DNA of 56,043 nucleotides, from assembly GCF_030813915.1 (NCBI RefSeq), contig NZ_JAUSUJ010000036.1, positions 1-56,043 on the forward strand. The letters run 5' to 3'. Positions 37,612-55,304 of this stretch are shown piece after piece. The stretch is from Rhodoplanes tepidamans (lineage in GTDB: Bacteria > Pseudomonadota > Alphaproteobacteria > Rhizobiales > Xanthobacteraceae). The position numbers were made by a program, and so were the translations under genes. The notes below the pieces were generated by a model that did not search any database, had not been told where the DNA came from, and saw nothing but the letters and a program-made list of their open reading frames with translations. How positions within the stretch are numbered: the stretch's first letter is position 1; each line of letters starts with the position of its first letter.

Positions 37612-38109
37612 TCAGGTCGACGATCCCGTTCCGATCATCTTGCGCAGCAGATAGACGAGGGCGACGCGCTCGACCGGCTCGAGCCCGCCCATGGTGAGCT
37701 CGGTGATGTGGTGGGCGCTCGGCACCATGCGGTCGAGCGTCGCGGCGCCCTGCGGGGTGAGATGGACGATCACCTTGCGGCGGTCGCCGCCGTCGTCTTC
37801 GATCTCGACCAGGCCGCGCGCCTTCAGCCGCTCGATGATGCCCCGGATGGTGCCCTGGTCGACCGCGGTGGCGCGCACCAGCTCGCTCTGCGAGCTCGGG
37901 CCGCGCTCGCGCAGCGTGCACAGCGTGACGAACTGGACCGCGGTGAGCCCGGGATCGGCGGTGTTCTGCTGGAAGATCGCGACGTGGCGCTGATAGGCCC
38001 GGCGGAGCAGATGGCCGACCTGCTCGCGGAAATCGTAGGGCGGACGCGCCGCGCCGCCGCCGCGCTTCCGGCGCGGCGCGTGCTGCGGTGCGGAGCCCCT
38101 GGCGGTCAT
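37612..38109 (-). CDS. MarR-family regulator
   Basis: Predicted 165-residue winged-helix regulator. DFREQVGHLLRRAYQRHVAIFQQ is followed by SQSELVRATAVDQGTIRGIIERLKARGLV and DRRKVIVHLTPQGAATLDRM. It resembles the second MarR protein at 55305 (EQVGFMLRQVNQRHSSIF) and the NicR type. It is divergent from the NMT1-type transporter operon, and two copies of a shared 12-mer lie in that gap, so it probably represses the operon. The ATG at 38109 is used; the frame is open further upstream. Confidence 0.88.
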   Translation of the reverse strand: MTARGSAPQHAPRRKRGGGAARPPYDFREQVGHLLRRAYQRHVAIFQQNTADPGLTAVQFVTLCTLRERGPSSQSELVRATAVDQGTIRGIIERLKARGLVEIEDDGGDRRKVIVHLTPQGAATLDRMVPSAHHITELTMGGLEPVERVALVYLLRKMIGTGSST

Positions 38110-38487: not shown

Positions 38488-39486
38488 ATGTCGTTCCAGC
38501 AGTCACTTCGAGCGTTCGTCTCGGGAGCCCTGGTGTCGGGGGCGATGCTCTCCGCCGCCGTGCCGTTCGCCGCGCCGGCGGCCGCCGACGAGATCTCGGT
38601 GACGCAGTGGGGCACCAGCATGTACGGCGCGCCCTACGCGGTGGCGATGGCCGAGGGGCTGTTCAAGAAGGCCGGCGTCGACATCACCTCGATCATCGGC
38701 TCGGGCGGCGGCGGCACCACGGTGCGCAACCTGCTGGCCAGCGACACGCCCTACGGCGACGTGGCGATCGCCGCGGCGCTGGCGGCGCAGCGCCAGGGGC
38801 TCGACGTGATCATCGTCAACACCGGCACCCGCAGCGTCGCCGAGGCGTCGCTGGTGACGATGCCGGATTCGCCGATCAAGTCGCTCAAGGATCTCGAAGG
38901 CAAGAAGGTCGCCATCACGTCGCCCAAGGGCGTCTCCGAGATGCTGCTCCTGATGGCGCTGAAGCAGGAGGGCGTCGACGCCTCCAAGGTCGAGCGCGTC
39001 GCCTCCGGCGGCTACGTCAACGGGCTGACCATGCTGGAGCAGGGGGCGGTCGCGGCCGCGGCGCTGATCGAGCCGCTGTCCATCATGCGCGCGTCGAAGT
39101 ACCGGACGGTCGCGAACTACGGCAAGATCCTGCCGCCGATGACCACCTCGGTCGGCATCACGACACGCGCCTTCGCGCAGAAGAATCCCGCCAAGCTGAA
39201 GGCGATCATCGCCGGGCGCGCCGCCGGCGTCGAGGCGCTCTACGCCGACCCGGCCAAGGCGGCCGAGATCGTCGGCAAGGCGTTCAAGCTCGAGCCGGCG
39301 ATCGCCAAGGTCGCCGTCGACAACATGCTGGCGCCGGCCATGTGGAGCACCGGCGAGTTCAACCGGGCCGAGCTCGACCGCACCGTCGAGGGGCTGCGCC
39401 TGATCGGCCAGATCGACGGCCCGGTCGACTGGTCGAAGCTGCTCGATCCCTCGTTCCTGCCGGCCTCGATCAAGGACAGGAAATGA
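38488..39486 (+). CDS. NMT1/SsuA-type ABC transporter binding protein
   Basis: Predicted 332-residue periplasmic binding protein with a signal peptide ending near APAAADEIS. QWGTSMYGAPYAVAMAEGLFKKAGVDITSI is the typical first lobe (cited in part), and LEGKKVAITSPKGVSEMLLL and LEQGAVAAAALIEPLSI follow. Relatives carry taurine, nitrate, riboflavin or pyrimidine precursors. The ligand here is unknown; the downstream nadC suggests a pyridine compound, which is inference. The ATG at 38488 follows AAGGGA. It overlaps the ATPase gene (ATGA). Confidence 0.88.
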   Translation: MSFQQSLRAFVSGALVSGAMLSAAVPFAAPAAADEISVTQWGTSMYGAPYAVAMAEGLFKKAGVDITSIIGSGGGGTTVRNLLASDTPYGDVAIAAALAAQRQGLDVIIVNTGTRSVAEASLVTMPDSPIKSLKDLEGKKVAITSPKGVSEMLLLMALKQEGVDASKVERVASGGYVNGLTMLEQGAVAAAALIEPLSIMRASKYRTVANYGKILPPMTTSVGITTRAFAQKNPAKLKAIIAGRAAGVEALYADPAKAAEIVGKAFKLEPAIAKVAVDNMLAPAMWSTGEFNRAELDRTVEGLRLIGQIDGPVDWSKLLDPSFLPASIKDRK

Positions 39487-40316
39487 CCGTCGCGGCGCTC
39501 GCCGAGGTCGCCGACGTGTCCGCCGTCGAGGACCGTCACGTCCGGCTCGCCGGCGTCACCCGGGTGTTCGGCAGGCCCGGCACGCCGAAGAGCGTGCACG
39601 CGCTCGGGCCGATCGACCTCGACCTGCGCCGCGGCGAGTTCTTCTCCGTCGTCGGTCCGTCCGGCTGCGGCAAGTCCACGCTGCTCGACGTGCTGGCCGG
39701 CCTCTCGAAGCCCACCGAGGGAACGGCCGAGTTCGAGGGGCGGCCGATCGACGGCGTCCCGGCGGGTGTCGGCGTCGTGTTCCAGGAGGACGCCTCGTTC
39801 CCCTGGCTCACCGTCGCCGACAACGTCGCCTTCGGGCTGCGCCGCGCCGGCGTCGACGCGGCCGAGATCGCCCGGCGGGTCGACTACGCGGTCGGCTTCA
39901 TGGGCCTCAAGGCCTTCGCCGGCGCCTATCCGGCGCAGCTCTCCGGCGGCATGCGCCAGCGCGTCTGCATCGCCCGCACGCTGGTGATGCAGCCGCGCCT
40001 GATCCTGCTCGACGAGCCGTTCGGCGCGCTCGACCAGCAGACCCGCCTGCTGATGGGCGACGAGCTGCTGCGGCTGTGGCGCGAGACGTCGGCGACCGTG
40101 CTGCTGATCACCCACGCGCTCGACGAGGCGGCGATGCTGTCCGACCGGGTCGGCGTCATGTCGGCGCGCCCCGGTGTGTTCATCGACGTGGTCGAGACCG
40201 GCTGGGAGGTCGAGCGCGACAGCCGCATCGTCTCGCATCACCGCTTCGGCGACATCACCGGCCGCCTGTGGGAGAAGCTGCGCACCGAGTCCCTCAAGCA
40301 TCTGCGCGACGGGTGA
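39483..40316 (+). CDS. NrtD/SsuB-type ABC ATPase
   Basis: Predicted 277-residue ATPase. Walker A is GPSGCGKST, FQEDASFPWLTVADNVAFGLR is the typical Q-loop segment, QLSGGMRQRVCIARTLVMQP the signature, and LILLDEPFGALD Walker B. It partners the binding protein and two permeases around it. A family A palindrome lies between it and the first permease. Confidence 0.93.
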   Translation: MTVAALAEVADVSAVEDRHVRLAGVTRVFGRPGTPKSVHALGPIDLDLRRGEFFSVVGPSGCGKSTLLDVLAGLSKPTEGTAEFEGRPIDGVPAGVGVVFQEDASFPWLTVADNVAFGLRRAGVDAAEIARRVDYAVGFMGLKAFAGAYPAQLSGGMRQRVCIARTLVMQPRLILLDEPFGALDQQTRLLMGDELLRLWRETSATVLLITHALDEAAMLSDRVGVMSARPGVFIDVVETGWEVERDSRIVSHHRFGDITGRLWEKLRTESLKHLRDG

Positions 40317-40372
40317 GCGGCGATGGGGATGCTCACGCTGGCCTGTGCTTCGTTTCCAGGCGAGTCGCTTCT

Positions 40373-40475
40373 GTCATTCCGGGACGGCGCGAAGCGCCGG
40401 ACCCGGAATCCAGCGACACGCTTCGATTTCCGATCTGGATTCCGGGTTCGCCGCTACGCGGCGCCCCGGAATGAC
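40373..40475. repeat. Dispersed palindrome family A, full copy
   Basis: GTCATTCCGGGACGGCGC ... GCGCCCCGGAATGAC with inner GGAATCCAG / CTGGATTCC. It fills most of the gap between the ATPase and permease genes. Confidence 0.7.
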
Positions 40476-40498
40476 CAGCTTTCCGTTCGGTCGCGCCG

Positions 40499-41248
40499 AT
40501 GACCCGCGAAGGCTGGATCAGGCTCGTCGTCGTCGCCGCCGCCGTCGCGGCGCTGGAGATCGCCTGCCGGACCGGCTGGATACCCACGACCGTGGTGATC
40601 CCGCCCTCCGCCATGGCGACCAGCCTCTACGACATTCTCGTCTCCGGCACCCACTGGGGCGACATCCTCGTCAGCCTGCGCAGCGTCGCCGCCGCCGGCG
40701 TGCTGGCGATCGGGCTCGGCTTCCTGGTCGGCGCCGTGATCCACGCGCTGCCGCCGGTGCGCAGCGCCGCCGAGCCGCTGCTCGCCAGCTACTACGCGGT
40801 GCCGACCTTCATGTTCTACCCGGTCTTCATCATCCTGTTCGGGGTCGGGTCCGCCGCCATCGTCGCGATCGCGGTGCTGCTCGCCATCGTCGCGATGATC
40901 TCGGCCACCCTGATCGGGCTCGACCGCATCCCCCGCGTGCTGGGCAAGACGGCGCTGATCATGCGCATGGGGCCGGTCGAGCGGGCGTTCCGCATCAGCC
41001 TGCCGGCCGCCATGCCCTACCTCTTCACCGGCGTGAAGCTCGCCGTCGCCTACGCCTTCATCGGCGTCATCGCGTCGGAGTTCATCCTGTCCGGCGCCGG
41101 CATGGGCTACGCCATCGCCTACGCCTACAACAACTTCAACAACCGCGAGATGTACGGCCTGATGCTGCTCATCGTGGTGCTGGTCACGATCGTCAACACG
41201 GCGCTGGACGCGGTCGACCGGCGCCTGCAGGCGCGGCTGAGGCGCTGA
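40499..41248 (+). CDS. SsuC-type ABC permease 1
   Basis: Predicted 249-residue permease. ILVSGTHWGDILVSLRSVAAAGVLAIGLGF (cited in part), the coupling helix region MRMGPVERAFRISLPAAMPYLFTGVKLAVAYAFIG (cited in part) and SGAGMGYAIAYAYNNFN are typical of the BPD_transp_1 fold in nitrate/taurine-type systems. It is followed after one base by a second permease, so the channel is likely a heterodimer. Confidence 0.9.
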   Translation: MTREGWIRLVVVAAAVAALEIACRTGWIPTTVVIPPSAMATSLYDILVSGTHWGDILVSLRSVAAAGVLAIGLGFLVGAVIHALPPVRSAAEPLLASYYAVPTFMFYPVFIILFGVGSAAIVAIAVLLAIVAMISATLIGLDRIPRVLGKTALIMRMGPVERAFRISLPAAMPYLFTGVKLAVAYAFIGVIASEFILSGAGMGYAIAYAYNNFNNREMYGLMLLIVVLVTIVNTALDAVDRRLQARLRR

Positions 41249-41249
41249 G

Positions 41250-41978
41250 ATGAAGAGCGTCCTGGGCCCCGCCGCCGTTCTCGCCGTCCTCCTGCTCGCC
41301 TGGGAGGTGCTGCATCTCGCGGTGGCCAACACCGGGCTTCCGTCGCCGCTGGCGACGCTGATGCAGCTCGTCGTCCTGCTCGGCGAGGCGGAGTTCTGGG
41401 CGCATGCGAGCCAGACCGCCCAGGCCTTCGCGGCCGCCGTGGTGCTCTCCACGGTCGGCGGCATCGCGCTCGGCATCCTGCTCGGCATGAACCGCACCGC
41501 CGGCACCGTGTCCGAGCCGATCCTGGTCAACCTCTACTCGCTGCCCAAGGTGACGCTCTATCCCGTGGTGCTGCTGATCTTCGGGCTCGGCATCTCGGCC
41601 CGCATCGCCTTCGGCATCATGCACGGCATGATCCCGCTCACGCTGTTCACCATGAACGCCATCCTGCAGATGAAGCCGGTCTATCGCCGCAGCGCCGCCG
41701 TGATGGGGCTGACGCCGTGGCAGACCTCGGTGAGCGTCGTGCTGCCGGCGATCCTGCCGGAGGTGATCACCGGCGCGCGGCTCGGCGTCTCGCTCTGCCT
41801 GCTCGGCGTGCTGATCGGCGAGATGTTCGCCTCGCGCAACGGGCTCGGCTACATGGTGATGCACGCGATGGAGCGCGGCGACATGCCGACCGTGCTGGCG
41901 GTGGCGCTGCTGCTCGCCATCGTGGCGCTGCTCGTCAACGCCGCCCTGCTGGCGCTCGACCGGGCATGGCGCCACTGA
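41250..41978 (+). CDS. SsuC-type ABC permease 2
   Basis: Predicted 242-residue permease with QTAQAFAAAVVLSTVGGIALGILLGMNR, SLPKVTLYPVVLLIFGLG and the coupling segment MGLTPWQTSVSVVLPAILPEVITGARLG. The ATG at 41250 immediately follows the stop of permease 1. The nadC gene follows after 100 bp. Confidence 0.9.
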   Translation: MKSVLGPAAVLAVLLLAWEVLHLAVANTGLPSPLATLMQLVVLLGEAEFWAHASQTAQAFAAAVVLSTVGGIALGILLGMNRTAGTVSEPILVNLYSLPKVTLYPVVLLIFGLGISARIAFGIMHGMIPLTLFTMNAILQMKPVYRRSAAVMGLTPWQTSVSVVLPAILPEVITGARLGVSLCLLGVLIGEMFASRNGLGYMVMHAMERGDMPTVLAVALLLAIVALLVNAALLALDRAWRH

Positions 41979-42078: not shown

Positions 42079-42912
42079 ATGTACGACAGCTTCGCCGTCG
42101 AGCGCCTGATCGATCTCTGGCTGCTCGAGGACATCGGCTACTGCGATCTCACGGCCCAGACCATGATCGAGCCGGAGGAGGTGGGCGCCTTCGCCATGAA
42201 CGCCCGCCAGCCGATGACGATCGCGGGCATCGAGATCGCGGCCGCCGTGTTCCGCCGCTACGAGCCGCGCCTCGCCGTCGACGTGAAGGTGAAGGACGGC
42301 GACGTGGTGGAGAAGGGCGCGATCCTGCTCACCGTGACCGGCCCGGCCCGCGGCATCCTCACCGGCGAGCGCACCGCGCTCAACATCGTCCAGCACATGT
42401 CGGCGATCGCCACCGAGACGGCCCGCTACGTGGCGATGATCTCGCACACCAAGGCGCGCCTGATCGACACCCGCAAGACGACGCCCGGCCTGCGCATGAT
42501 CGAGAAGCACGCCGTCACCTGCGGCGGCGGCCTCAACCACCGGCTCGGCCTCGACAACGGCGTGATGATCAAGGACAACCACATCGCGGTGTGCGGCGGC
42601 ATCGCCCCGGCGGTGGGGCGGGCGAAGACGAAGCTGCCGACGCTGACCAAGATCGAGGTCGAGTGCGACCGCCTGGAGCAGGTCTCCGAGGCGCTCGCCG
42701 CCGGCGCCGACGTCATCATGCTGGACAACATGTCGTGCGAGGACATGACCCGGGCGGTGGCGATGGTCGCCGGCCGGGTGCCGCTCGAGGCCTCCGGCGG
42801 CATCCGGCTCGACACCATCAAGGCGATCGCCGAGACCGGCGTCGACTACATCTCGACCAGCAAGATCACCCAGGCGGCCCCGGCCGTCGACATCGGCCTC
42901 GACGAGGCGTGA
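42079..42912 (+). CDS. nadC: Quinolinate phosphoribosyltransferase NadC
   Basis: Predicted 277-residue enzyme that converts quinolinate and PRPP into nicotinate mononucleotide, CO2 and pyrophosphate. [16 protein letters not shown] opens the N-terminal domain; [48 protein letters not shown] and [11 protein letters not shown] are the conserved active-site segments. No nadA or nadB lies nearby. The position between an NMT1-type transporter and a PRPP-forming fusion protein suggests a salvage or catabolic context and not the usual de novo operon. The ATG at 42079 follows GAAAGG. Confidence 0.93.
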
Positions 42913-42968
42913 GACGAAGATCGATCGATGTGCGTTGACGCTCCCCATCCGGGTACAGCGCCGCCTTC

Positions 42969-43045: not shown

Positions 43046-45103
43046 ATGACCCCGGGCGTCCTCTTCTTCGTCGTGGGCCCGAGCGGATCCGGCAAGGACA
43101 CGCTGCTCGACGGCGCCCGCGCGGCGCTGGGCGGCACGGGGCGCTTCGCGTTCGCGCGGCGCGTCATCACGCGGCCGGCCGACGCGGGCGGCGAGGCGCA
43201 CGAGGCCGTCGACGCCGCGACCTTCGCCCGCATGAAGGCCGACGGCGCCTTCCTGATCGACTGGGAGGCGCACGGCCTCGCCTACGGCGTGCCGGCCCGC
43301 TGTCTCGACGACCTCGCCCGCGGCCGCCACGTGATCGCCAACGGCTCGCGTGCCGTGGTGGCGGATCTGCTCGCCCGTGTGCCGGATCTCGTCGTGGTCG
43401 AGATCACGGCGCCGCCCGAACTGCTGGCCCGGCGTCTCGCCGGCCGCGGGCGCGAAACCGCCGACGTGATCCGGGCGCGGCTGGCGCGCACGACGCCGCC
43501 GTTTCCGGAGGCCGCGACCGTGGTGCGGGTGGCGAACGATTCCACGCCGCAGGCCGGCACCGAGCGCTTCGTCGCTGCGCTGGAAGCCCAGACGGTGCGG
43601 CTGACGCTGACCCGGCTGCCGCTCGCCGCCGGCCAGCGGGCGCTCGCCGTGCTGCCGCGCGACTCCTCGGTGGTGCGCGCGGAGGACTATCTCGGGCCCG
43701 GCCGCATCGACCTCGCGGCGCGGGGCAGGAGCATCCGGGCCGAGGTGGCGCTCGCCGACCCCGGCACGCTGGCGCCGGACTCGGTCGGGCTCACCGGGGA
43801 GGTCTTCGAGCGGCTCGGGCTGCCGGAGGGCACGCCCGTGGTGCTGACCCGCACGCCGACGCCCGCCAGCCGCGCCGCGCTGCGCGCCAAGATCCGCGGC
43901 GGCACGCTGGACGAGGCCGACTATGCGCGCGTCGTCGGCGACATCGTCGAGGGCCGCTATCCGGACAGCGAGGTGGCCGGCTTCCTGGTCGCCGCCGACC
44001 GCGGCCTCGACGACGACGAGGTCCTGGCGCTCGCCCGGGTGCGGGCGAGCTTCGCGTTGCGGATCCGGTGGGACGAGCCGATCGTCGCCGACAAGCATTC
44101 CATGGGCGGCATCCCGGGCTCGCGCGTCACCATGGTGCTGGTGCCGATCGTCGCGGCGCACGGGCTCGCCATTCCGAAGACCTCGTCGCGCGCCATCACC
44201 TCGGCGGCCGGCACGGCGGACGCCATGGAGACGCTGGCGCGCGTCGACCTCGACGCCGACGACGTGCGGCGCGTGGTGGCCCAGGCCCGCGGCTGCGTCG
44301 CCTGGAACGGCCGGCTGAACCACTCGACGCTGGACGACGTGATGAACGCCATCACGCGGCCGCTCGGCCTCGAATCGACGCGCTGGTCGGTCGCCTCGAT
44401 CCTGTCCAAGAAGCTCGCCGCCGGCGCCACCCACGTCGTGCTCGATCTGCCCTACGGGCCGCGCGCCCGGATCAAGAGCCTGGCCGAGGCGACGACACTG
44501 GCGCAGCTCTTCGAGCGCGTCGGCGCCGGGCTCGGGCTATCGGTCGAGGCGGTGCCGACCGACGGCACGGCGCCGATCGGGCGCGGCATCGGCCCGGCGC
44601 TCGAGGCCCGCGACGTGATCCGGGTGCTGGAGAACGATACCGCCGCCCCCGCCGACCTGCGCGAGAAGGTCCTGCACTTCGCCGGCCGCATCATCGCCTG
44701 GGATCCGGCGGTGGGCAGCCGCGAGGCGGCGCGGCGGCGCGCCGAGGACCTGCTGGGCTCCGGTGCGGCACGCGAGGCGCTGGACAGGATCGTCGCCGCG
44801 CAGGGCGCGCGCGAGCCGATCCGGCCGGGCCGGCTGACCCACACGGTGGTGGCGCCGCACGCCGGCGTGGTCACCGACATCGACGGCTTCGCGGTCGCCG
44901 GCATCGCGCGGGTCGCCGGCGCGCCCCTCGACAAGAGCGCCGGCATCGACCTGCGGGCGCGCGTCGGGGATCCGGTCGGCAAGGGCGAGGCGCTGTTCGT
45001 GATTCACGCCAGTGCCGCGACCGACCTCGAGGCGGCGGCGCAGCTCGCGGCGACGTTCTCGGGGTTCACCATCGGCGAGGCGAAGGCGGCCTCGGCCGGA
45101 TGA
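43046..45103 (+). CDS. Fusion: PhnN ribose-1,5-bisphosphokinase + AMP/thymidine phosphorylase-type enzyme
   Basis: Predicted 685-residue protein. Residues 1 to about 185 are PhnN-like: P-loop GPSGSGKD at 11-18, [15 protein letters not shown], and the later [17 protein letters not shown]. Residues from about 190 are a complete AMP-phosphorylase-type (thymidine phosphorylase family) enzyme with its N-terminal swivel domain ([19 protein letters not shown]) and the signature [18 protein letters not shown] near 381-398. Known chemistry: AMP phosphorylase makes ribose 1,5-bisphosphate from a nucleoside monophosphate and phosphate; PhnN phosphorylates it to PRPP. The fusion would thus turn NMP into base plus PRPP. 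It follows nadC, a PRPP consumer. The ATG at 43046 follows GAGAGAG. Substrate base unknown. Confidence 0.88.
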
Positions 45104-45746
45104 GGGCGAGCGCGACCGCCAGCGTCGTCGCAGCAGGCACCAGGACCCAGGTCCACGCGCCGAGCGTGTAGAGCGTCGCCGCGGCGACGAGCGCCCACGC
45201 GACCGGCACGATCGCCAGCACGAAACGCAGTCCGCCACGCAGCGCCGCCAGGATCGCGAGGGTGCCGAGCGCGGTCGGGTCGGGGAGGAGGCCGAAGCTC
45301 TCGGCGGTGTCGAGCGCCCCGCCGTCGAACGGCGCCAGCAGCGGCCACCCGAGCACGATCGCGACGAGAAGGGCCGCGGCGGCGACCGATGCCGCATCGC
45401 GCGGCTCCCGCAGCTCCACCATCCGGGCGAGGCCCGCGACGATCAGCAGGAGGCCCTGCAGCGCGAACGCCGGCGCGGCGTAGAGGATGCCCCAGTTGAT
45501 GGTGGCGTAGCGCTCCCACAGGAACGCCCAGGCGACGACGATCCACAGGCCGCCGAGCACCGGAAGGACGACCCGCGTGGCGCCGCGCCGCGGCGCGACG
45601 ATCAGGGCCGCCGCCACGAGGCCGAGCAGCGTCGTGCCGATCTGGGCCGGCCACAGCGCCGCGTTGGTGGCCGCGATCAGCCGGTGGTAGACGCGCGGCG
45701 AGAACATCAGGAAGTCGGAGAGCCCGTAGGTCCACCACTCGGACAT
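45066..45746 (-). CDS. DUF6064 family membrane protein
   Basis: Predicted 226-residue polytopic membrane protein. [23 protein letters not shown] at the N terminus (cited as a guide to the family) and about six hydrophobic segments match DUF6064, whose function is unknown. Its start overlaps the stop of the aldo/keto reductase gene (TGATG), and its 3' end overlaps the convergent fusion gene by 38 bases. Confidence 0.75.
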
Positions 45747-46672
45747 CACAGGCGTCCGATGTGGTCGGCGATGCGCCGGCGCATCGTCTCGTCCGGCAGC
45801 GGATCCGCGGCGGCGGCGAGGTTCTCGCGCACGTGGTCGACCCGCGTCGTCGCCGGGATCGCGCAGGTGACGGCCGGGTGCGACACGATGAACTTGAGAA
45901 CGAGCTGTGCCCAGCTCGCCGCGCCGATCTCGGCCGCCCAGCCGGGCAGCGGATGGTGCGCCAGCCGCCGCGTCAGCTCGCCCTCGCGGAACGGCCGGTT
46001 GACGATCACGGCGATGCCGCGCTCGCGGGCGAGCGGCAGGATTCGGCTCTCCACCTCGCGGTCGAGCGGATTGTAGGTGATCTGGACGAAGTCGAGCGGC
46101 CGGCTCGCCATCACGGATTCGAACTCGCGGCGCCGCCGGCCCTCCGAGGTGGTGATGCCGACGTAGCGGACCCGCCCGGCCGCCTTCATGGCGGCGAGCG
46201 TGTCGAGATGCGCCTCCCAGGACAGCAGGTTGTGCACCTGCACGAGATCGAAGCGCGGCACGCCCCACAGGCCGAGCGAGCGGGCGATCTGCGGCGGGCC
46301 GTCGCGACCCGCCGAGGTCCACACCTTCTCGGCCGAGAACAGCGCGGCGGGCCGCCCGAGCCTGGCGAGGGCATAGCCGATGGTCGGCTGCGACGAGCCG
46401 TACATGGGCGAGGAATCGATCATGCGGCCGCCGGCGGCGAAGAACGCCGCGACGACGGCGGCGCACTCGTCGCGCAGCACCGGGTCGTTGCCGACGTTGA
46501 AGGTGATCCAGGTGCCGAGCCCGACGGCCGAAACGGCCTCGCCGGTCGACGGGATCGGCCGCGTGATCGGCGTCGGGGCGGGCCGCCCCGGCTGCGCCCG
46601 CAGCGCCGGGCCGAGGGCGGCCGCGCCCGCCGCGCCGGCGAGCCCGCCCAGGATGGTCCGCCGTGTGTGCAT
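45746..46672 (-). CDS. Tat-exported aldo/keto reductase
   Basis: Predicted 308-residue oxidoreductase. The N terminus (TRRTILGGLAGAAGAAALG) is a Tat signal, so the enzyme should be folded with its cofactor before export. Catalytic residues are visible: Asp and Tyr in RMIDSSPMYGSS, Lys in FSAEKVW, His in DLVQVHNLLSW. TYNPLDREVESRILPLARERG and ITTSEGRRR fit AKR topology. The ATG at 46672 starts right at the signal; the frame is open upstream to 46792. It forms a two-gene unit with the DUF6064 gene. The substrate is unknown. Confidence 0.85.
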   Translation of the reverse strand: MHTRRTILGGLAGAAGAAALGPALRAQPGRPAPTPITRPIPSTGEAVSAVGLGTWITFNVGNDPVLRDECAAVVAAFFAAGGRMIDSSPMYGSSQPTIGYALARLGRPAALFSAEKVWTSAGRDGPPQIARSLGLWGVPRFDLVQVHNLLSWEAHLDTLAAMKAAGRVRYVGITTSEGRRRREFESVMASRPLDFVQITYNPLDREVESRILPLARERGIAVIVNRPFREGELTRRLAHHPLPGWAAEIGAASWAQLVLKFIVSHPAVTCAIPATTRVDHVRENLAAAADPLPDETMRRRIADHIGRL

Positions 46673-47038: not shown

Positions 47039-47518
47039 ATGACGGTTCACGATCCGCTCATCTCCCTCCACGTCAACGGCGAGACGCACAGGCTGCGGCT
47101 GCCCGGATCGACGCCGCTCCTGTCGGTGCTGCGCAACGATCTCGGTCTCAACGGGCCGAAGTTCGGCTGCGGCATCGGCGAATGCGGCAGCTGCACCGTG
47201 CTGGTGGACGGCGTCGCGGCGCGCGCCTGCGTGCTGCATCTCGCCGACGTGGCGGGCCACCGCGTCACCACGCTGGAAGGCCTCGGCGGACCCGACAGCC
47301 TGCATCCGGTACAGGCGGCCTTCGTCGAGACCGCCGGAGCGCAGTGCGGCTACTGCCTCAACGGCATGATCATGACGACGGCGGCGCTGCTCGACGCCAA
47401 TCCGGATCCGAGCGAGGACCAGATTCGCGAGGCGCTGCGCTTCAATCTGTGCCGGTGCGGCACCCATGTGGAGATCCTCGCCGCGGTGCGGCTCGCCGCC
47501 GAATGGAGGCGACGGTGA
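47039..47518 (+). CDS. nicA: Nicotinate dehydrogenase 2Fe-2S subunit, NicA type
   Basis: Predicted 159-residue small subunit with two 2Fe-2S clusters. The plant-type site is KFGCGIGECGSCTVLVDG (Cys 44, 49, 52 and a later one), the second is QCGYCLNGMI with LCRCGTH. Such subunits carry electrons from the molybdenum centre of isoquinoline-oxidoreductase-type hydroxylases. With the following cytochrome-bearing large subunit it matches NicAB, which hydroxylates nicotinate to 6-hydroxynicotinate. It overlaps nicB by four bases (GTGA). Confidence 0.9.
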   Translation: MTVHDPLISLHVNGETHRLRLPGSTPLLSVLRNDLGLNGPKFGCGIGECGSCTVLVDGVAARACVLHLADVAGHRVTTLEGLGGPDSLHPVQAAFVETAGAQCGYCLNGMIMTTAALLDANPDPSEDQIREALRFNLCRCGTHVEILAAVRLAAEWRRR

Positions 47519-50500
47519 CGCTTCAGCCGCAGGGCCTCACCCGGACCGACTATCTGACGCGCCGCGGCAGCCTCGCCGTGGTGAAGCCGCCGGCCGGCGT
47601 CGTCGACGTCGCGGCCGCCGACCCGGAGGCTCTCGAGCCGTTCGTGCTGGTCGATGCGGACGGAACCGTCACGGCGTTCAACGGCCATGTCGATCTCGGA
47701 ACCGGCATCCGCACGGCGCTGGCCCAGATCGTCGCCGAGGAGCTCGACGTCGGCTTCGCGCGCGTGACCATGGTGCTGGGCGACACCGCGCTGACGCCCG
47801 ACCAGGGCCCGACCATCGCCAGCGAGACCATCCAGATCACGGCGCCCGCGCTGCGGCGGGCGGCGGCGCAGGCGCGCCACGCGCTCCTCGCCCGCGCCGC
47901 CGAGAGGCTCGACGTGCCGGCGCCGGAGCTCGTGGTCGAGGACGGGGTGGTGCGGCGGCGCACCACCGGATCCGGCGGCGCGACCGGCGAGAGCGGGGCG
48001 GACGCTGCGGCAGCCGCCGGCGACAACCGCTTCGTCACCTATGGCGAGCTGATCGGCGACGAGCGCATCGTGCTGGCGCTCGCCGAGGACGTGCCGGTGA
48101 AGCCCGTGTCCGAGCACCGCATCGTCGGCCGCTCGCAGCCCCGCGTCGATCTGCCGGCCAAGGCGACCGGCGGCCTCGTCTATGTCCACGACGTGCGCGT
48201 GCCCGGCATGCTGCACGGCCGCGTGGTGCGGCCGCCCTATGCGGGCGTCGACATCGGCGACTTCGTCGGCACCAGCCTGATCGCGGTCGACGAGAGTTCG
48301 ATCGCCCACATTCCCGGGATCGTCGCGGTCGTCGTGATCGGCGACTTCGTCGGCATCGTCGCCGAGCGCGAGGAGAACGCCGAGGCCGCGATGCGGACGC
48401 TGCGTGTCGCCTGGAAGCCGACGCCGAAGCTGCCCGATCTCGACGACCTCGCCGGCGCGCTGACCAGGAACCCGTCGACGCCGCGCGTGCTGCTCGACCA
48501 GGGCGACGTCGACGGCGCGCTCGCCGGCGCGGCGAAGCGCATGCCGCGCGAGTATCTGTGGCCGTATCAGATGCACGCCTCGATCGGCCCGTCCTGCGCG
48601 GTCGCCGATCTCTCGGAGGGGCGGCTGCGCGCCTGGTCGGGCAGCCAGAACCCGGTGTGGCTGCGCGCCGATCTGGCCAAGCTGATGGATCTGCCCGAGG
48701 CCGCCGTCGAGATCGTCCGGCTGGAGGCGGCCGGCTGCTACGGCCGCAACTGCGCCGACGACGTCACGGCCGACGCGGCGCTGCTCGCGCGCGCCGTCGG
48801 CAGGCCGGTCCGCGTCCAGCTCACCCGCGATCAGGAGCACGCCTGGGAGCCGAAGGGCGCGGCGCAGCTGATGACGGTCGACGGCGGCCTGAACGCCGAC
48901 GGCACCGTCGCCGCCTACGACTTCCAGACGCGCTATCCTTCCAACGCGTCGCCCACGCTGGCGCTGCTGCTCACCGGCAAGGTGGCGGCCGGCGCGACCG
49001 TGCTGCAGATGGGCGACCGCACCGCGATCGGCCCCTACGACTTCGCCAACAAGCGCGTCGTCTGCCACGACATGGCGCCGATCGTGCGGGCGGCGTGGCT
49101 GCGCGGCGTCTCGGCGCTGCCCAATACCTTCGCGCACGAGTGCTACATCGACGAGTTGGCGGCGGAGGCGGGCGTCGATCCGATCGAGTACCGGCTGCGC
49201 TACCTGAAGGACCAGCGGGCCCGCGAGCTCGTGCAGCAGCTCGCCGCGCGGGCGGAATGGGAGCCGCATGTCGGCGCCCGGCTGCGCGAGGACCCGGACG
49301 GCATCCGGCGCGGGCGCGGCTTCGCCTATGCGCTCTACGTCCACTCGAAGTTCCCGGGGTACGGCGCCGCCTGGGCGGCCTGGGTCGCCGACGTCGCGGT
49401 CGACACCCGGACCGGCGAGGTGGCGCTGACCAAGATCACGGTCGGCCAGGACTCCGGCCTGATGATCAATCCGGACGGCGTGCGCCACCAGATCCAGGGC
49501 AACGTCATCCAGTCCACCAGCCGCGTGCTGAAGGAGGAGGTGACGTTCACGGACGTCGCGGTGGCGAGCCGCGAATGGGGCGCCTATCCGATCCTCACCT
49601 TCCCGGAGCTGCCGCCGATCGACGTGATGATGGTGCCGCGGCCGAACGACGACCCGCTCGGCGTCGGCGAATCCGCCTCGGTGCCGAGCGCGGCCGCCAT
49701 CGCCAACGCCGTCTACGACGCGACCGGGGTCCGTTTCCGCGAGCTGCCGCTCACGCCCGAGCGCGTGCTCGCGGGTCTGCGTGCCGCCGGCGTCGCCCCG
49801 CCGGCGCCGGCGGCCGCAGCGTCGTCCCTGCCGCCGGCCGCGCGGCCCGAGAAGCCGTCGCGGCTGAGGACGGTGGTGTGGCCGCTGGTCGCCGCCGCCA
49901 TCGGCGCGGTCGGGTCGATCGGCGTCGTGACGCTGCCGTGGCGCGGCGCCATCGCGCCGATCCCGCGGCCGGAACCGTCGGTGTTCTCGGCGGCGACCAT
50001 CGAGCGCGGCCGCGTGCTCGCCCATCTCGGCGCCTGCTTCGTCTGCCACACGGCGGAGGGCGGCGTGCCGCTCGCCGGCGGGCTGCGGCTCGACACGCCG
50101 TTCGGCGTCATCACCACCACCAACATCACGCCGGACGTCGAGACCGGCATCGGCGCGTGGTCCTATCCGGCCTTCGAGCGGGCGATGCGCGAGGGGCTGC
50201 ACCGCAACGGCCGGCATCTCTATCCGGCCTTCCCGTACACGTCCTATGCGAAGACCACGGACGCCGACCTGCAGGCGCTCTACGCGTTCCTGATGTCGGT
50301 GCCGGCGGTGCGCCACGCGACGCCGGCGCCGGAGTTCTCGTTCCCGTTCGACCAGCGGCCCCTGATGGCGCTGTGGAACACCATGTTCCACAAGGCGGCG
50401 CCGTTCACGCCGGACCCGACGAAGAGCGAGCTGTGGAATCGCGGCTTCTACCTGGTCGAGGGGCTCGGTCACTGCTCGGCCTGCCACACGCCGCGCAACG

Positions 50501-51174
50501 CGATGGGCGCCGAGGAGAGCGGTGCCCGGCGCTTCTCCGGCGGCGTCGCGGAAGGCTGGGATGCGCCGGCGCTCAATCGCGACAGCCGGGCGCCGGTGCC
50601 GTGGGACGAGACCGCCTTCTACGACTATCTGCGCACCGGCTGGTCGCGCCATCACGGCGCCGCCGCCGGGCCGATGGCGCCGATCGTCGCCGAGCTGAAG
50701 GTGCTGCCCGACGACGACATCCGCGCCATGGCGCACTATCTCGCCTCGCTCGGCGATGCGCCGAAGGCGGCGGCCGAGATCGAGGCGCTCGCGGCGGCCC
50801 GCGAGGCGGCCGCCGCGGCGCGGGCCGGGACCCCGGTCTCGGTCCCGGGCGGACGAATGTTCGACGGCGCCTGCGCGGTCTGCCACGAGCCCGGCAAGGG
50901 GGCGGCGCTCTACGGAACCAAGCCGTCGCTGGCGCTCGTCACCGCGGTGCAGTCCGACACGCCCGACACGGTGCTGCGGGTGATGCTCGAGGGCATCCAT
51001 CCGCCCGGGCTCGGCGAGCTCGGCGCCATGCCGTCCTTCGCCGACCACCTGTCCGACTGGCAGATCGCCGAGATCGCGCGCTACGTGCGCGGCCGCTTCG
51101 CGCCCGAGCGTGCGGCGTGGACGGATCTCGAGGCGACGGTGGCGCGTTTGCGGGCGCAGGTGAGAACGCGGTGA
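47515..51174 (+). CDS. nicB: Nicotinate dehydrogenase molybdopterin/cytochrome c subunit, NicB type
   Basis: Predicted 1219-residue protein. The N-terminal two thirds are a molybdopterin-binding hydroxylase domain (FNGHVDLGTGIRTALAQIVAEEL, RVDLPAKATGGLVYVHDVRVPGMLHG, AAGCYGRNCADDVTADAALLAR; cited in part) ending with the GVGE motif that carries the catalytic Glu. A membrane helix lies near 785-806. Three CxxCH heme sites follow, near residues 840, 986 and 1120. This domain order and length match NicB of Pseudomonas putida, which sends electrons to the respiratory chain. The GTG at 47515 follows TGGAGG; ATG at 47503 is an alternative. Related isoquinoline or aldehyde oxidoreductases share the layout, so the substrate rests on context. 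Confidence 0.88.
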   Translation: MTLQPQGLTRTDYLTRRGSLAVVKPPAGVVDVAAADPEALEPFVLVDADGTVTAFNGHVDLGTGIRTALAQIVAEELDVGFARVTMVLGDTALTPDQGPTIASETIQITAPALRRAAAQARHALLARAAERLDVPAPELVVEDGVVRRRTTGSGGATGESGADAAAAAGDNRFVTYGELIGDERIVLALAEDVPVKPVSEHRIVGRSQPRVDLPAKATGGLVYVHDVRVPGMLHGRVVRPPYAGVDIGDFVGTSLIAVDESSIAHIPGIVAVVVIGDFVGIVAEREENAEAAMRTLRVAWKPTPKLPDLDDLAGALTRNPSTPRVLLDQGDVDGALAGAAKRMPREYLWPYQMHASIGPSCAVADLSEGRLRAWSGSQNPVWLRADLAKLMDLPEAAVEIVRLEAAGCYGRNCADDVTADAALLARAVGRPVRVQLTRDQEHAWEPKGAAQLMTVDGGLNADGTVAAYDFQTRYPSNASPTLALLLTGKVAAGATVLQMGDRTAIGPYDFANKRVVCHDMAPIVRAAWLRGVSALPNTFAHECYIDELAAEAGVDPIEYRLRYLKDQRARELVQQLAARAEWEPHVGARLREDPDGIRRGRGFAYALYVHSKFPGYGAAWAAWVADVAVDTRTGEVALTKITVGQDSGLMINPDGVRHQIQGNVIQSTSRVLKEEVTFTDVAVASREWGAYPILTFPELPPIDVMMVPRPNDDPLGVGESASVPSAAAIANAVYDATGVRFRELPLTPERVLAGLRAAGVAPPAPAAAASSLPPAARPEKPSRLRTVVWPLVAAAIGAVGSIGVVTLPWRGAIAPIPRPEPSVFSAATIERGRVLAHLGACFVCHTAEGGVPLAGGLRLDTPFGVITTTNITPDVETGIGAWSYPAFERAMREGLHRNGRHLYPAFPYTSYAKTTDADLQALYAFLMSVPAVRHATPAPEFSFPFDQRPLMALWNTMFHKAAPFTPDPTKSELWNRGFYLVEGLGHCSACHTPRNAMGAEESGARRFSGGVAEGWDAPALNRDSRAPVPWDETAFYDYLRTGWSRHHGAAAGPMAPIVAELKVLPDDDIRAMAHYLASLGDAPKAAAEIEALAAAREAAAAARAGTPVSVPGGRMFDGACAVCHEPGKGAALYGTKPSLALVTAVQSDTPDTVLRVMLEGIHPPGLGELGAMPSFADHLSDWQIAEIARYVRGRFAPERAAWTDLEATVARLRAQVRTR

Positions 51175-51418: not shown

Positions 51419-51523
51419 AAGGCCGGCTCCGGCGAAGGTCGCGCCGCGCGATTGCCCCCACGCGCGTCCGCTGCGGCCCCTGCGTGCACCGACCGGTCGG
51501 ACCCCGCGAGAAAAGAGGCCATG

Positions 51524-53005
51524 ATGAAGGACCCTCAGCCGTCCGTCGACCAGAAGGTGCGCTGCGACGCCTGTCCGGTCGCCTGCTGGATCCGTCCCGG
51601 CATGTCGGGCGCCTGCGACCGCTACGCCAACCGCGACGGCGAGCTGATCCGGGTCGATCCGCACGTGATCCTGGAGCGCACGCTCGACCAGGGCGGCCGC
51701 GTGGTGCCGTTCAACCAGCGCAAGAGCGAGTGGGCCGGCGAGATCGTGCCGGAGGACGCCCTGTTCGTCACCGCCATCGGGGCCGGCACCACCTATCCGG
51801 ACTACAAGCCGGCGCCGTTCATCGTCTCGGCCGAGGTCGACGGTGTCGACATGGTCACGGTGGTGACCGAGGGCATCTTCAGCTATTGCGGCGTGAAGGT
51901 GAAGGTCGACACCGACCGCTTCCTCGGCCCCGAGCAGGCGACGGTGCGGGCGCAGGGCGAGGCCGTCGGCCACGTCACCACCGGCGAGTACGGCTCGCAG
52001 ATGCTGTCGCTCGGCGGCGTGCACCACCTCACCGGCGGCTCCAAGAAGGAAGGCCGCGTCACCTGCGACACGCTGCTGGAGCTCTCCAACGGCAAGCCGG
52101 TGGAGCTGACCATCGACGACGGCTCCACCATCGTGGTGGAGGCCGGCAAGGCGCCGATCATCAACGGCGTTCCCGAGGAGCGCATGCGGGTCGGCTGCGG
52201 CTCGGCCACCATCGGCATCTTCGCCAAGCAGTGGTTCGGCAAGGTCGACGAGGTGGTGGTGGTCGACGACCACATCACCGGCGTGCTCTCCGAGCACGCG
52301 TCCGGCAAGGTGCTGGGCATCCAGCCCACCGGCATCAAGATGCGCGGACGGCGCTCGACGCCGGGCCGCTACTTCCAGGTCGCCGATCCCGGCACCGGCT
52401 GGGGCGGCACCAGCATCTCGGACCCGCTGTCGATCCTGGATCCGTTCGACAAGTCCGTCGCGAAGCCCGGCATGACCATGTTCATGGTCTCGACCACGGG
52501 CGAGCATTCCGCTTTCTTCCGTCTCGACGAGAACCTGGTGCCGGTCGAGGCCGAGATGCCGGAGGCGCTGCGCGCCTCGACCGAGCGCATCAAGGAGAAC
52601 TGCGAGCCGGCGCTCTCCACGGTGCTGTTCATCGCCGGCGCCGGCGGCTCGCTGCGCGCCGGCGTCACCGAGAATCCGGTGCGGCTCACCCGCTCGGTGA
52701 AGGACACGCTGACCCGCGTCACCTGCGGCGGCGCGCCCGTCTATGTGTGGCCGGGCGGCGGCATCACCTTCATGGTCGACGTCACGCGGCTGCCGGCCAA
52801 CGCCTTCGGCTACGTGCCGACGCCGGCGCTCGTCGCGCCGATCGAGTTCACGCTCAAGCTCGAGGACTACGCGGCGCTCGGCGGCCACATGGATCACGTC
52901 CGGCCGCTCGGGAGCCTCGGCGACCACGAGAGCCGGCTGGTGCCGCCCGTGCAGGGCAATGTGTGGCCCTTCGCGTCCGACGGACCGCGCTGGGGGCGGA
53001 GCTGA
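51524..53005 (+). CDS. 6-hydroxynicotinate reductase
   Basis: Predicted 493-residue enzyme that matches the 6-hydroxynicotinate reductase family described from Eubacterium barkeri, where the ring is reduced by ferredoxin to 1,4,5,6-tetrahydro-6-oxonicotinate. The N terminus has CDACPVACWIRPGMSGACDRY; Cys 14, 17, 21 and 31 could hold an iron-sulfur cluster. Glycine-rich segments (TAIGAGTTYPDYKP, VRVGCGSATIG-like RVGCGSATIGIFAKQWFGK, TPGRYFQVADPGTGWGGTS) follow. The ATG at 51524 is five bases after GAGG; ATG at 51521 is less well placed. It overlaps the UPF0280 gene (TGATG). Confidence 0.85.
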   Translation: MKDPQPSVDQKVRCDACPVACWIRPGMSGACDRYANRDGELIRVDPHVILERTLDQGGRVVPFNQRKSEWAGEIVPEDALFVTAIGAGTTYPDYKPAPFIVSAEVDGVDMVTVVTEGIFSYCGVKVKVDTDRFLGPEQATVRAQGEAVGHVTTGEYGSQMLSLGGVHHLTGGSKKEGRVTCDTLLELSNGKPVELTIDDGSTIVVEAGKAPIINGVPEERMRVGCGSATIGIFAKQWFGKVDEVVVVDDHITGVLSEHASGKVLGIQPTGIKMRGRRSTPGRYFQVADPGTGWGGTSISDPLSILDPFDKSVAKPGMTMFMVSTTGEHSAFFRLDENLVPVEAEMPEALRASTERIKENCEPALSTVLFIAGAGGSLRAGVTENPVRLTRSVKDTLTRVTCGGAPVYVWPGGGITFMVDVTRLPANAFGYVPTPALVAPIEFTLKLEDYAALGGHMDHVRPLGSLGDHESRLVPPVQGNVWPFASDGPRWGRS

Positions 53006-53919
53006 TGGCGGCCGCGGCCGTCGCGGCGAGCGGGGCGCGGCGTCCGCACGCCCGCATGCTGCCGGACGGCCGCCGCCTGCATCTGCAGGACGGGCCGATC
53101 GACCTGATCGTCGAGGCCTTCGGCCCGCGCGACGTGATCGAGACCGCCTACCGGGCGGCGGCCCGGCGACTGACCGGGCTCCTGGACGATCTGTGCGGCG
53201 AGCTCGCCACGCTGCGCCGGCCGGTCGGGCCGACCGCGCCGGCGCCGCTCGGCCCGGTCGGGCGACGCATGGCCGCCGCGGTGCGGCCGTTCGCGGACGA
53301 GACGTTCATCACCCCGATGGCGGCGGTGGCCGGCAGCGTCGCCGACGAGATTCTCGCCGCCATGACGGCGGCGGCCGGCGACGCCCTCGCGCGCGCCTAT
53401 GTCAACAACGGCGGCGACATCGCGCTGCACCTCTCGCCCGGCACGCGCCTCACCACCGGCCTGGTCGACCGGCCGGACCGGCCGACGATCTTCGCCACCG
53501 CGGCGATCGAGGCGGCCGACCCGGTGCGCGGCATCGCCACGTCCGGGGCCGGCGGCCGCAGCTTCTCGCTCGGCATCGCCGACGCCGTGACCATCCTGGC
53601 GCGCGACGCGGCGAGCGCCGACGCGGCCGCGACCGTGGTCGCCAACGCGGTCGACATCGCCCATCCCGGCATCGTGCGCCTGCCCGCCCGCGAGCTGCAG
53701 CCCGACAGCGATCTCGGCGACCGTCTCGTCACCCGCGCCGTGCCGCCGCTGGCGCGGCCGGAGATCGACGCGGCGCTCGATCGCGGCGCGGCCGCCGCCG
53801 CCGCGCTGCGCGAGCGGGGCCTGATCGTCGCCGCCGCGCTGCATCTGCAGGGCACCACCCGCACGGCGGGGCCGCTGCTGCAGCCCGAGATTTCCGATCT
53901 GTCCCGTCAATCCCGATAA
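53005..53919 (+). CDS. UPF0280 family protein (ApbE-like fold)
   Basis: Predicted 304-residue protein. RLHLQDGPIDLIVEAFG, TPMAAVAGSVADEILAAMTA, AYVNNGGDIALHL and GIATSGAGGRSFSLGIADAVTILA are the UPF0280 hallmarks; the family is structurally related to ApbE flavin transferases but its function is unknown. It is translationally coupled to the reductase gene. A role in flavin loading or maturation of that reductase is a plausible inference. The DUF1185 pair follows after 11 bp. Confidence 0.85.
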   Translation: MAAAAVAASGARRPHARMLPDGRRLHLQDGPIDLIVEAFGPRDVIETAYRAAARRLTGLLDDLCGELATLRRPVGPTAPAPLGPVGRRMAAAVRPFADETFITPMAAVAGSVADEILAAMTAAAGDALARAYVNNGGDIALHLSPGTRLTTGLVDRPDRPTIFATAAIEAADPVRGIATSGAGGRSFSLGIADAVTILARDAASADAAATVVANAVDIAHPGIVRLPARELQPDSDLGDRLVTRAVPPLARPEIDAALDRGAAAAAALRERGLIVAAALHLQGTTRTAGPLLQPEISDLSRQSR

Positions 53920-53930
53920 GGCATTCGTGC

Positions 53931-54515
53931 ATGGCCGACGTTCTCGTGAGAAAGCGCCTCGTCACCGTGGAGGAGATCTTCCACGAAGGTGGACCGGTCA
54001 CCGACCGGACGATCCGGCGCGGCGCCGCCGTGGCGGTGATCAAGAACCCGTTCGCGGGCCGGTACGTCGAGGACATCGCCTTCTTCATGAAGGACCTGGA
54101 GCCGCTCGGCGTCTCGCTCGCGCGGCAACTCCTGGATGCGCTCGGCGGCGTTCCCAAGTCGATCGAGGGCTACGGCAAGGGCGCGATCGTCGGCGAGGCC
54201 GGCGAGCTCGAGCACGGCGCGCTGTGGCACGTGCCGGGCGGCTATGCGATGCGCGACGTGCTCGGCAGCACCAAGGCGATCGTGCCGTCGACCAAGAAGG
54301 TCGGCGGGCCGGGCACGCGGCTCGACGTGCCGATCACACATGTCGATGCATCCTACGTCCGGACCCATTACGATGCCATGGAGGTCGGCGTGCCCGATGC
54401 GCCGCGCGCCGACGAGATCGCGCTGGTCCTGGTGATGACCATGGGCGGACGCGTCCACGCCCGCATCGGCGGGCTCCTGGCGCATCAGATCGAAAAGTGG
54501 GATGGATTGCGATGA
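53931..54515 (+). CDS. DUF1185 (AA_synth) family protein, copy 1
   Basis: Predicted 194-residue protein. AVAVIKNPFAGRYVEDIAFF, IEGYGKGAIVGEAGELEHGA, KKVGGPGTRLDVPITHVDASYVRTHYD (cited in part) and VGVPDAPRADEIALVLVMTMGGRVHARIGGL match DUF1185. These proteins are usually called amino acid synthesis family proteins without biochemical proof. It overlaps copy 2 (ATGA), is the same length and is clearly paralogous. Conserved Glu, His, Lys and Asp residues could form an active site. Location after the reductase makes it a candidate for hydrolysis of the reduced ring. Confidence 0.85.
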   Translation: MADVLVRKRLVTVEEIFHEGGPVTDRTIRRGAAVAVIKNPFAGRYVEDIAFFMKDLEPLGVSLARQLLDALGGVPKSIEGYGKGAIVGEAGELEHGALWHVPGGYAMRDVLGSTKAIVPSTKKVGGPGTRLDVPITHVDASYVRTHYDAMEVGVPDAPRADEIALVLVMTMGGRVHARIGGLLAHQIEKWDGLR

Positions 54516-55268: not shown

Positions 55269-55304
55269 CGGCGTGTGAGTATGATGGCGGGCGAGGGGCA
55301 GGGC

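Follow-up and report, generated by a model that had tools for sequence, protein, structure and literature searches.

Why should an alphaproteobacterium encode, in one polypeptide, an enzyme that produces ribose 1,5-bisphosphate and another that consumes it, and why should the gene for this polypeptide lie behind nadC, the gene for quinolinate phosphoribosyltransferase? The question is raised by a 685-residue protein encoded at positions 43046-45103 of the Rhodoplanes tepidamans contig NZ_JAUSUJ010000036.1 (assembly GCF_030813915.1), which was analyzed over its whole length of 56,043 bases (hereafter the window) and is one of the 63 contigs (C36) that make up a genome of 6.86 Mb. From its domain content, gene neighborhood and group-specific residues, we consider it probable that this fusion protein carries out the recycling steps of a catalytic cycle of 5-phosphoribosyl 1-diphosphate (PRPP), by which imported quinolinate is decarboxylated to nicotinate. 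In the more specific form of this proposal, toward which we lean with somewhat less assurance, PRPP would behave as a recycled coenzyme, with NadC adding ribose phosphate to quinolinate for its decarboxylation, a new nicotinate mononucleotide (NaMN) phosphorylase removing it, and the fused PhnN domain re-activating it.

Domain architecture of the fusion protein

The gene is a single open frame of 685 codons on the forward strand with no internal stops; an alternative longer TTG start is present at 42935, and the relatives of the protein start at approximately the same Met as the 43046 frame. The product comprises an N-terminal ribose 1,5-bisphosphokinase (PhnN) domain (residues 1-181) and a C-terminal domain of the AMP-phosphorylase type (residues 185-677). 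In NCBIfam searches, residues 4-181 pass the cut-off of the PhnN model TIGR02322 (191.9 bits; cut-off 156) and fall below that of a second model, PRK10078 (99.8 bits; cut-off 153). Residues 185-677 pass the cut-offs of the phosphorylase models PRK04350 (608.2 bits; cut-off 434) and TIGR02645 (474.5 bits; cut-off 434.6), and score 396.4 bits with the AMP-phosphorylase equivalog model TIGR03327, below its cut-off of 535. The closest sequence in the PDB is 4ga5, the AMP phosphorylase of T. kodakarensis (278 bits), and the same entry is the best fold match (Foldseek E 1.4e-46) of the AlphaFold2 model, which has a mean predicted local distance difference test (pLDDT) score of 87.7 and a predicted template modeling score of 0.68. 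The top 50 fold matches listed for this model include none to the guanylate-kinase-like PhnN half. The P-loop residues G11, S13, G14, G16, K17 and D18 of the PhnN domain are invariant in 26 aligned fusions.

The open frame, the domain matches and the domain order bear out the initial annotation of this gene as a PhnN and AMP-phosphorylase-type fusion of 685 residues. Likewise, its rationale that the product of the phosphorylase is the substrate of PhnN is supported by the identities of both domains and by the sequence and fold match to 4ga5. It had also raised the loss of catalytic residues as a concern; on alignment, both the P-loop and the presumed phosphate site of the phosphorylase (see below) are retained.

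Distribution and linkage to nadC

A scan of named genomes recovered at least 472 relatives, and the best 80 by similarity to the window's protein were kept (the 80 loci); these are partly redundant, as L109 looks like the contig of L043, and L133 and L136 come from one strain. Full-length matches are rare in broader samples, with 2 in the 289 genomes of an even class sample and 4 in the 101 of an order sample, the window's own counted; the best fusion match among those listed is from Rhodoplanes elegans (88%). Both halves lie in one open frame in 72 of the 80 loci, five have a separate adjacent PhnN gene, and in three no PhnN was seen. The same fusion, which the initial annotation had proposed to look for elsewhere, recurs among its relatives, and this recurrence rules out a chance fusion or an assembly artefact. 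For comparison, 21 loci with stand-alone AMP phosphorylases, each spanning 4.9-19.9 kb, were drawn from the class and order samples as controls. Among 13 stretches of viral contigs that matched a pattern, none encodes a relative of the fusion.

A consistent feature of these neighborhoods is nadC, which lies upstream on the same strand within 4 kb in 74 of the 80 loci, as well as in the window, and near none of the 21 stand-alone phosphorylases. Of the six remaining loci, L103 and L120 begin where their contigs begin, and L110 is a contig of 5.3 kb; no nadC is found nearby in L118, L135 and L137. NadC is encoded by the gene called directly before the fusion or phosphorylase gene in 56 of 85 gene-called loci, with a median gap of 15 bp (133 bp in the window), and in five loci nadC, phnN and the phosphorylase gene are three separate neighbors. 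In the phosphorylase tree, built by a quick method with Shimodaira-Hasegawa-like approximate likelihood-ratio test (SH-aLRT) values and no bootstrap, a branch with a value of 100 splits the 21 stand-alone enzymes from the other 85 rows. With midpoint rooting, L147, which has separate nadC, phnN and phosphorylase genes, joins next to the stand-alone enzymes, and L118, with no gene for NadC or PhnN nearby, falls among the NadC-linked rows.

Some variation was noted within the family. Shorter fusions of about 600 residues occur in Cupriavidus, Caballeronia and some Pseudomonas (part of L130-L149, e.g., L131:10001-11746, and also L135 and L137); in the four rows aligned, they are without the N-terminal domain of AMP phosphorylase, of about 85 residues, and PhnN is joined straight to the catalytic part. 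The fusion of L125, filed as a Flavobacteriaceae metagenome-assembled genome, groups with the alphaproteobacterial L117 in both trees, which suggests either transfer or a binning error.

Importers and nicotinate catabolism

Genes for importers or their binding proteins recur beside the nadC-fusion pair, and belong to several kinds: among the 80 loci, 22 have tripartite ATP-independent periplasmic importers of the TAXI type, 17 have ATP-binding cassette (ABC) importers (counted as a binding protein plus permease of the window's kind), 15 have Bug-type binding proteins and 6 have major facilitator superfamily transporters. The Bug protein encoded in Variovorax JS1663 gives 452 bits against Bug27 (2qpq) and shares 44-71% identity with its counterparts at the other 14 loci. 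According to a 2024 report in FEBS Open Bio (PMC11452294), Bug27 and Bug69 bind quinolinate in vitro with submicromolar affinity, and bug27 adjoins nadC and phnN in Variovorax, for which a role in NAD metabolism was suggested.

The second recurrent association is with nicotinate catabolism. Clusters of the NicAB/Hnr type degrade nicotinate via 6-hydroxynicotinate, as described in PMC3511419. Counting as markers the genes for Hnr, enamidase, NicB-like proteins, molybdenum enzymes of the xanthine dehydrogenase type, UPF0280-type proteins and AA_synth proteins, we found them at 28 of the 80 loci (Hnr or enamidase at 22) and at none of the 21 controls. The window has such a cluster downstream of the fusion gene. 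It includes genes for a nicA-like 2Fe-2S subunit of nicotinate dehydrogenase (47039-47518, forward strand) and a nicB-like subunit with molybdopterin and cytochrome c domains detected with Pfam (47503-51174, forward), which are 62% and 55.5% identical (the latter over 1223 alignment columns) to annotated nicA and nicB of a Neorhizobium plasmid (CP030828.1). They are followed by a homologue of 6-hydroxynicotinate reductase (51521-53005, forward), 69% identical to the annotated hnr of the Neorhizobium plasmid. The name hnr is taken from annotated plasmid records and from PMC3511419; neither a relative in the PDB nor a match in NCBIfam or Pfam was found for this protein.

In Rhodoplanes sp. Cfx2-03, the same cluster continues into genes for an enamidase, a ferredoxin-reductase-like protein and a branched-chain-type ABC importer. 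These have counterparts at the start of contig C11 in the window's genome, among them an enamidase gene (G000:C11:124-1314), from which we infer that C36 and C11 adjoin in the genome. The C11 enamidase is 84% identical to that of the sister locus L076, which in turn matches 2vun with 381 bits. Hence, NicAB and Hnr in the window and enamidase on the other contig place all the components by which a tetrahydro-oxonicotinate cluster is recognized in this genome.

We also searched 51 genomes in full, representing 46 of the 80 loci and five others; most have the fusion, three have split genes and one is without PhnN. An enamidase relative (E <= 1e-60) is present in 30 of these, in 26 at 58% identity or more, and a NicB-like protein (E <= 1e-150), which in some cases may be other than a nicotinate dehydrogenase, in 33. 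Either is present in 45 of the 51, or in 42 if only the close enamidases (at least 58% identity) are counted. A side observation concerns L043, where two short open reading frames by the fusion gene (L043:12366-13003) resemble pieces of an enamidase relative by eye, perhaps through frameshift or decay, and likewise in L109.

A distinct residue signature in the phosphorylase domain

The presumed phosphate site is strongly conserved, with K350, H351, S451, K455 and K456 in all 77 NadC-linked rows and S352 in 76 of them. H351, S451, S454 and K456 are common to all 77 and to all 21 stand-alone phosphorylases, which have K350 in 18, K455 in 19 and C at position 352 in 20 cases. A total of 23 positions separate the two groups, nine of them within residues 421-444. 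N421, H426 and N434 occur in 77 of 77 NadC-linked phosphorylases and in 0 of 21 stand-alone ones, and position 437 is T or N in all of the former and E in all of the latter. The signature is also seen in seven fusions unlinked to NadC (7 of 7 at 426 and 434, 6 of 7 at 421), and the T. kodakarensis AMP phosphorylase carries the stand-alone residues at 421, 426 and 434.

A gap-free alignment anchored on a conserved Asp puts 434 and 437 at the positions of Tyr168 and Arg171 of thymidine phosphorylase, which touch the base in that enzyme. Positions 421, 426, 434 and 437 would accordingly lie in or near the base pocket. Together with the upstream nadC, the importers and the downstream nicotinate-catabolic genes, none of which entered the initial annotation, these differences make NaMN, which that annotation had listed among several candidates, the most likely substrate of the phosphorylase domain.

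The NadC of the operon

The NadC gene of the window (42079-42912, forward; TIGR00078, 323.1 bits, cut-off 198.4) encodes a member of the operon subfamily and the only NadC over the cut-off in its genome. The next match, at 142.9 bits, is a distant gene of the NadC family on contig C26 (L222:4225-5070) that lies beside another set of importer genes and is perhaps ModD-like. Residues R98, R132, K133, H154, R155 and K165, which we presume to form the quinolinate site, are kept in the operon NadCs wherever the rows aligned. A NadC tree covering 14 genomes that have an additional copy placed that copy in its own clade (support 100/97) in 12 genomes, 11 of which also have NadA; therefore, in these the operon copy should not be needed for de novo synthesis of nicotinamide adenine dinucleotide (NAD). 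For G409, which is among these 12, no operon NadC was seen, as its locus L103 starts at a contig end. The 12 separate-clade copies have Q for H154 in four cases and I for R155 in one, and 13 alignment columns set the operon NadCs apart from them. A mere housekeeping role is thus unlikely for the operon NadC where a separate-clade copy coexists, and is possible in the window's own genome.

A predicted PRPP-recycling cycle and its alternatives

Taken together, these linkages suggest the following scheme. An importer would take up quinolinate, as may be expected from the known quinolinate binders of the Bug type. NadC, by the known activity of its family and with its presumed site residues retained, would convert quinolinate and PRPP to NaMN, CO2 and pyrophosphate. 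The C-terminal domain of the fusion, which is homologous to AMP phosphorylase and carries altered residues in or near the presumed base pocket, would then split NaMN with phosphate into nicotinate and ribose 1,5-bisphosphate, and the N-terminal PhnN domain, again by the activity of its family, would use ATP to convert the latter to PRPP and ADP. The predicted net reaction is quinolinate + ATP + phosphate -> nicotinate + CO2 + ADP + pyrophosphate, and ribose phosphate would serve as a handle that is used again in each turn. Nicotinate could finally enter the 6-hydroxynicotinate/tetrahydro-oxonicotinate route via NicAB, Hnr and enamidase. In genomes where the operon NadC is the sole NadC, part of the NaMN presumably also goes to NAD. 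Such a cycle would account for the fusion of an enzyme that makes ribose 1,5-bisphosphate to one that uses it, with nadC in front; for the several kinds of adjoining importer or binding-protein genes; for the retention of the operon NadC in genomes with NadA and another NadC; and for nicotinate catabolism being adjacent or encoded elsewhere.

The alternative we take most seriously, while holding it to be unlikely, is that the locus serves quinolinate salvage for NAD, with NadC making NaMN from imported quinolinate and the fusion only supplying PRPP from ordinary nucleoside monophosphates (NMPs). This comes close to the interpretation of the nadC-phnN-bug27 neighborhood in PMC11452294, the only paper we found that notes the adjacency. 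It also draws support from the single NadC over the cut-off in the window's genome, which has NadA, so that this NadC may serve NAD synthesis, and from the patchy occurrence of NadA, present in 26 of the 51 genomes and missing in 25. Five of the latter (G065, G359, G391, G408 and G431) are also without nicotinate phosphoribosyltransferase (NAPRTase), and the operon NadC may be their route to NAD. NadB exceeds its cut-off in 20 of the 51 genomes; in the window's genome none does (best 332.6 bits, perhaps a paralogue, against 452.75), a cut-off that just 5 of the 14 control genomes exceed. However, NAPRTase is present in 43 of the 51 genomes (weakly, at 32-44 bits, in eight of these, including the window's), and the separate-clade NadC of 12 of the 14 genomes checked, 11 with NadA, likewise speaks against a dependence of NAD supply on this operon. 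Moreover, a flux at the level of a vitamin should need no dedicated source of PRPP, the phosphorylase signature is unlike that of AMP phosphorylase, and nicotinate-catabolic genes adjoin the module in 28 of the 80 loci.

General recycling of NMPs to PRPP, the function put forward in the initial annotation, appears improbable to us. Under it, the phosphorylase would act on AMP, CMP and UMP, as the T. kodakarensis enzyme of this domain family does (PMC9700705), and the adjacency of nadC would reflect only the use of PRPP. Three related NadC-less fusions (L044, L045 and L110), which adjoin cytochrome bc1 genes and of which two come from genomes without any NadC (G386 and G351), are in keeping with it. 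The enzyme halves, their order and the ribose 1,5-bisphosphate chemistry of that proposal stand, whereas its substrate range is at odds with the score below the TIGR03327 cut-off, with the invariance of N421, H426 and N434 in NadC-linked enzymes and their absence from stand-alone ones, and with the linkage to nadC, importers and nicotinate genes. We give very little weight to a third possibility, that the operon NadC and the phosphorylase apply the same PRPP-handle logic to a different 2-carboxypyridine. The chemistry of the NadC family, a decarboxylation next to the ring nitrogen, would suit such a compound, and the 13 columns that separate the operon NadCs could reflect it; yet the presumed quinolinate-site residues are kept where aligned, a Bug27-like binder is among the linked proteins, and the adjacent cluster degrades nicotinate, the very product expected from quinolinate.

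Several observations weigh against the quinolinate-to-nicotinate cycle. The 80 loci were chosen for closeness to the window's protein and include near-duplicates, and the 21 controls, which are among the best unfused homologues and lie on short stretches, are a non-random sample. By the probes used, 20 of the 80 loci have no importer; 52 have no nicotinate marker, some of them being cut by contig ends. Close enamidases and NicB-like proteins are both missing from nine of the 51 genomes, and the background frequency of enamidase in the order, from an even sample that was not taxonomically matched, is 38 of 199 (33 at 67% identity or more). Fusions occur in G386 and G351 even though these genomes have no NadC; as G386 nevertheless has an enamidase, its fusion may have as substrate the NaMN that arises in NAD turnover. 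The further NadCs of G411 and G422 belong to the operon subfamily, which is thus not confined to this operon. Finally, the base-pocket argument builds on an alignment and on the base contacts of thymidine phosphorylase, and stresses four of 23 group-specific positions. HMMER sets a gap in this region against pyrimidine nucleoside phosphorylase and the structural model is weak at residues 421-440 (pLDDT 67-68), and the placement is therefore a lead and no proof.

Relationship to known systems

The archaeal AMP (NMP) phosphorylase TK0352 of T. kodakarensis, which yields ribose 1,5-bisphosphate according to PMC9700705, shares with the window's enzyme the fold of the C-terminal part (4ga4-4ga6) and the phosphate-site residues. 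The latter differs from it in its fusion to PhnN, its linkage to nadC and the residues at 421, 426, 434 and 437, and some beta- and gammaproteobacterial fusions differ further by the missing N-terminal domain. E. coli PhnN, known from carbon-phosphorus (C-P) lyase operons, is of the family whose curated cut-off the window's domain passes, and by family both would convert ribose 1,5-bisphosphate to PRPP. A 2003 study by Hove-Jensen reportedly, by its title, linked E. coli PhnN to NAD synthesis. Here, in contrast, PhnN is fused to a phosphorylase in a genome without PhnJ, the one gene of the C-P lyase system that was looked for; the remark in the initial annotation that the window has no C-P lyase genes holds genome-wide for this gene. 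A C-P lyase role for the fusion is consequently unsupported in the window's genome; PhnJ was found in two of five genomes tested.

The neighborhood of the FEBS Open Bio report is the same as that seen here in Variovorax. In the main text of that paper, the word "phosphorylase" is missing, and the interpretation offered is NAD metabolism, with no catabolic cycle. The nicotinate catabolism of E. barkeri, Azorhizobium and Bradyrhizobiaceae SG-6C (PMC3511419) is matched by the NicAB and Hnr genes beside the module and the enamidase in the genome; those clusters start from nicotinate, whereas here a quinolinate-entry module appears to have been added. Neither a PRPP-recycling quinolinate pathway nor an NaMN phosphorylase was found in the open-access literature searched, in part among the best-ranked hits. 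The component families are already known, public records include the fusion, and the adjacency of nadC, phnN and bug27 has been published. In plasmid records of Variovorax and Pacificitalea (genes of 2,154 and 2,127 bp), the fusion is labeled only as "phnN, phosphonate metabolism".

Quinolinate is a metabolite of tryptophan and NAD and is neurotoxic in animals. If correct, our proposal would constitute a new metabolic cycle in which an activated sugar serves as a catalytic handle instead of a building block, and a route from quinolinate to nicotinate with a predicted NaMN phosphorylase activity. It would also assign PhnN a role outside C-P lyase systems and a bacterial phosphorylase forming ribose 1,5-bisphosphate a role in catabolism, and would correct the public annotation of the fusion as phnN alone.

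Other features of the neighborhoods

In the window, an ABC importer (38545-41978), nadC and the fusion gene follow one another on the same strand. The importer comprises an NMT1/SsuA-like periplasmic binding protein (38545-39486; library match on a longer frame from 38473), which is a candidate quinolinate binder, an ATPase (39483-40316; assigned from its open reading frame and clustering only) and two permeases with PF00528 (40499-41248 and 41250-41978), all on the forward strand. Divergent from it is a gene for a MarR-type regulator (37612-38109, reverse), assigned only by its clustering with another at the right end of the nicotinate cluster (55281-55751, forward), which matches several MarR-family models, all below cut-off. 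Two opposite-strand genes (45066-46672) separate the fusion gene from the nicotinate cluster, which extends to 55751. Downstream of hnr, this cluster encodes on the forward strand a UPF0280-type protein (52963-53919; 388.3 bits with NF003322, "hypothetical protein", cut-off 290), whose gene accompanies hnr in relatives too, an AA_synth protein detected with Pfam (PF06684; 53931-54515), and a second AA_synth-type protein (54512-55096) that clusters with the first and has no NCBIfam match.

By clustering, a gene for an FRG-domain protein (PF08867; it matches the candidate defense family PDC-S15) lies near the nadC-fusion pair in 9 of the 80 loci. Those at L076:4983-5795 and L112:7475-8296 were checked with Pfam and PADLOC, and the domain is annotated in L195; similar open reading frames cluster with them in L077, L089, L122, L126, L118, L132 and L142. 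The stand-alone alphaproteobacterial AMP phosphorylases (L046, L048, L057, L060, L069 and others) often have neighbors of a different kind, namely a PRPP-synthetase-like gene in five loci, a gene of the metallo-beta-lactamase fold in 11 and a P-type cation ATPase gene in four, and perhaps represent another circuit of ribose 1,5-bisphosphate and PRPP.

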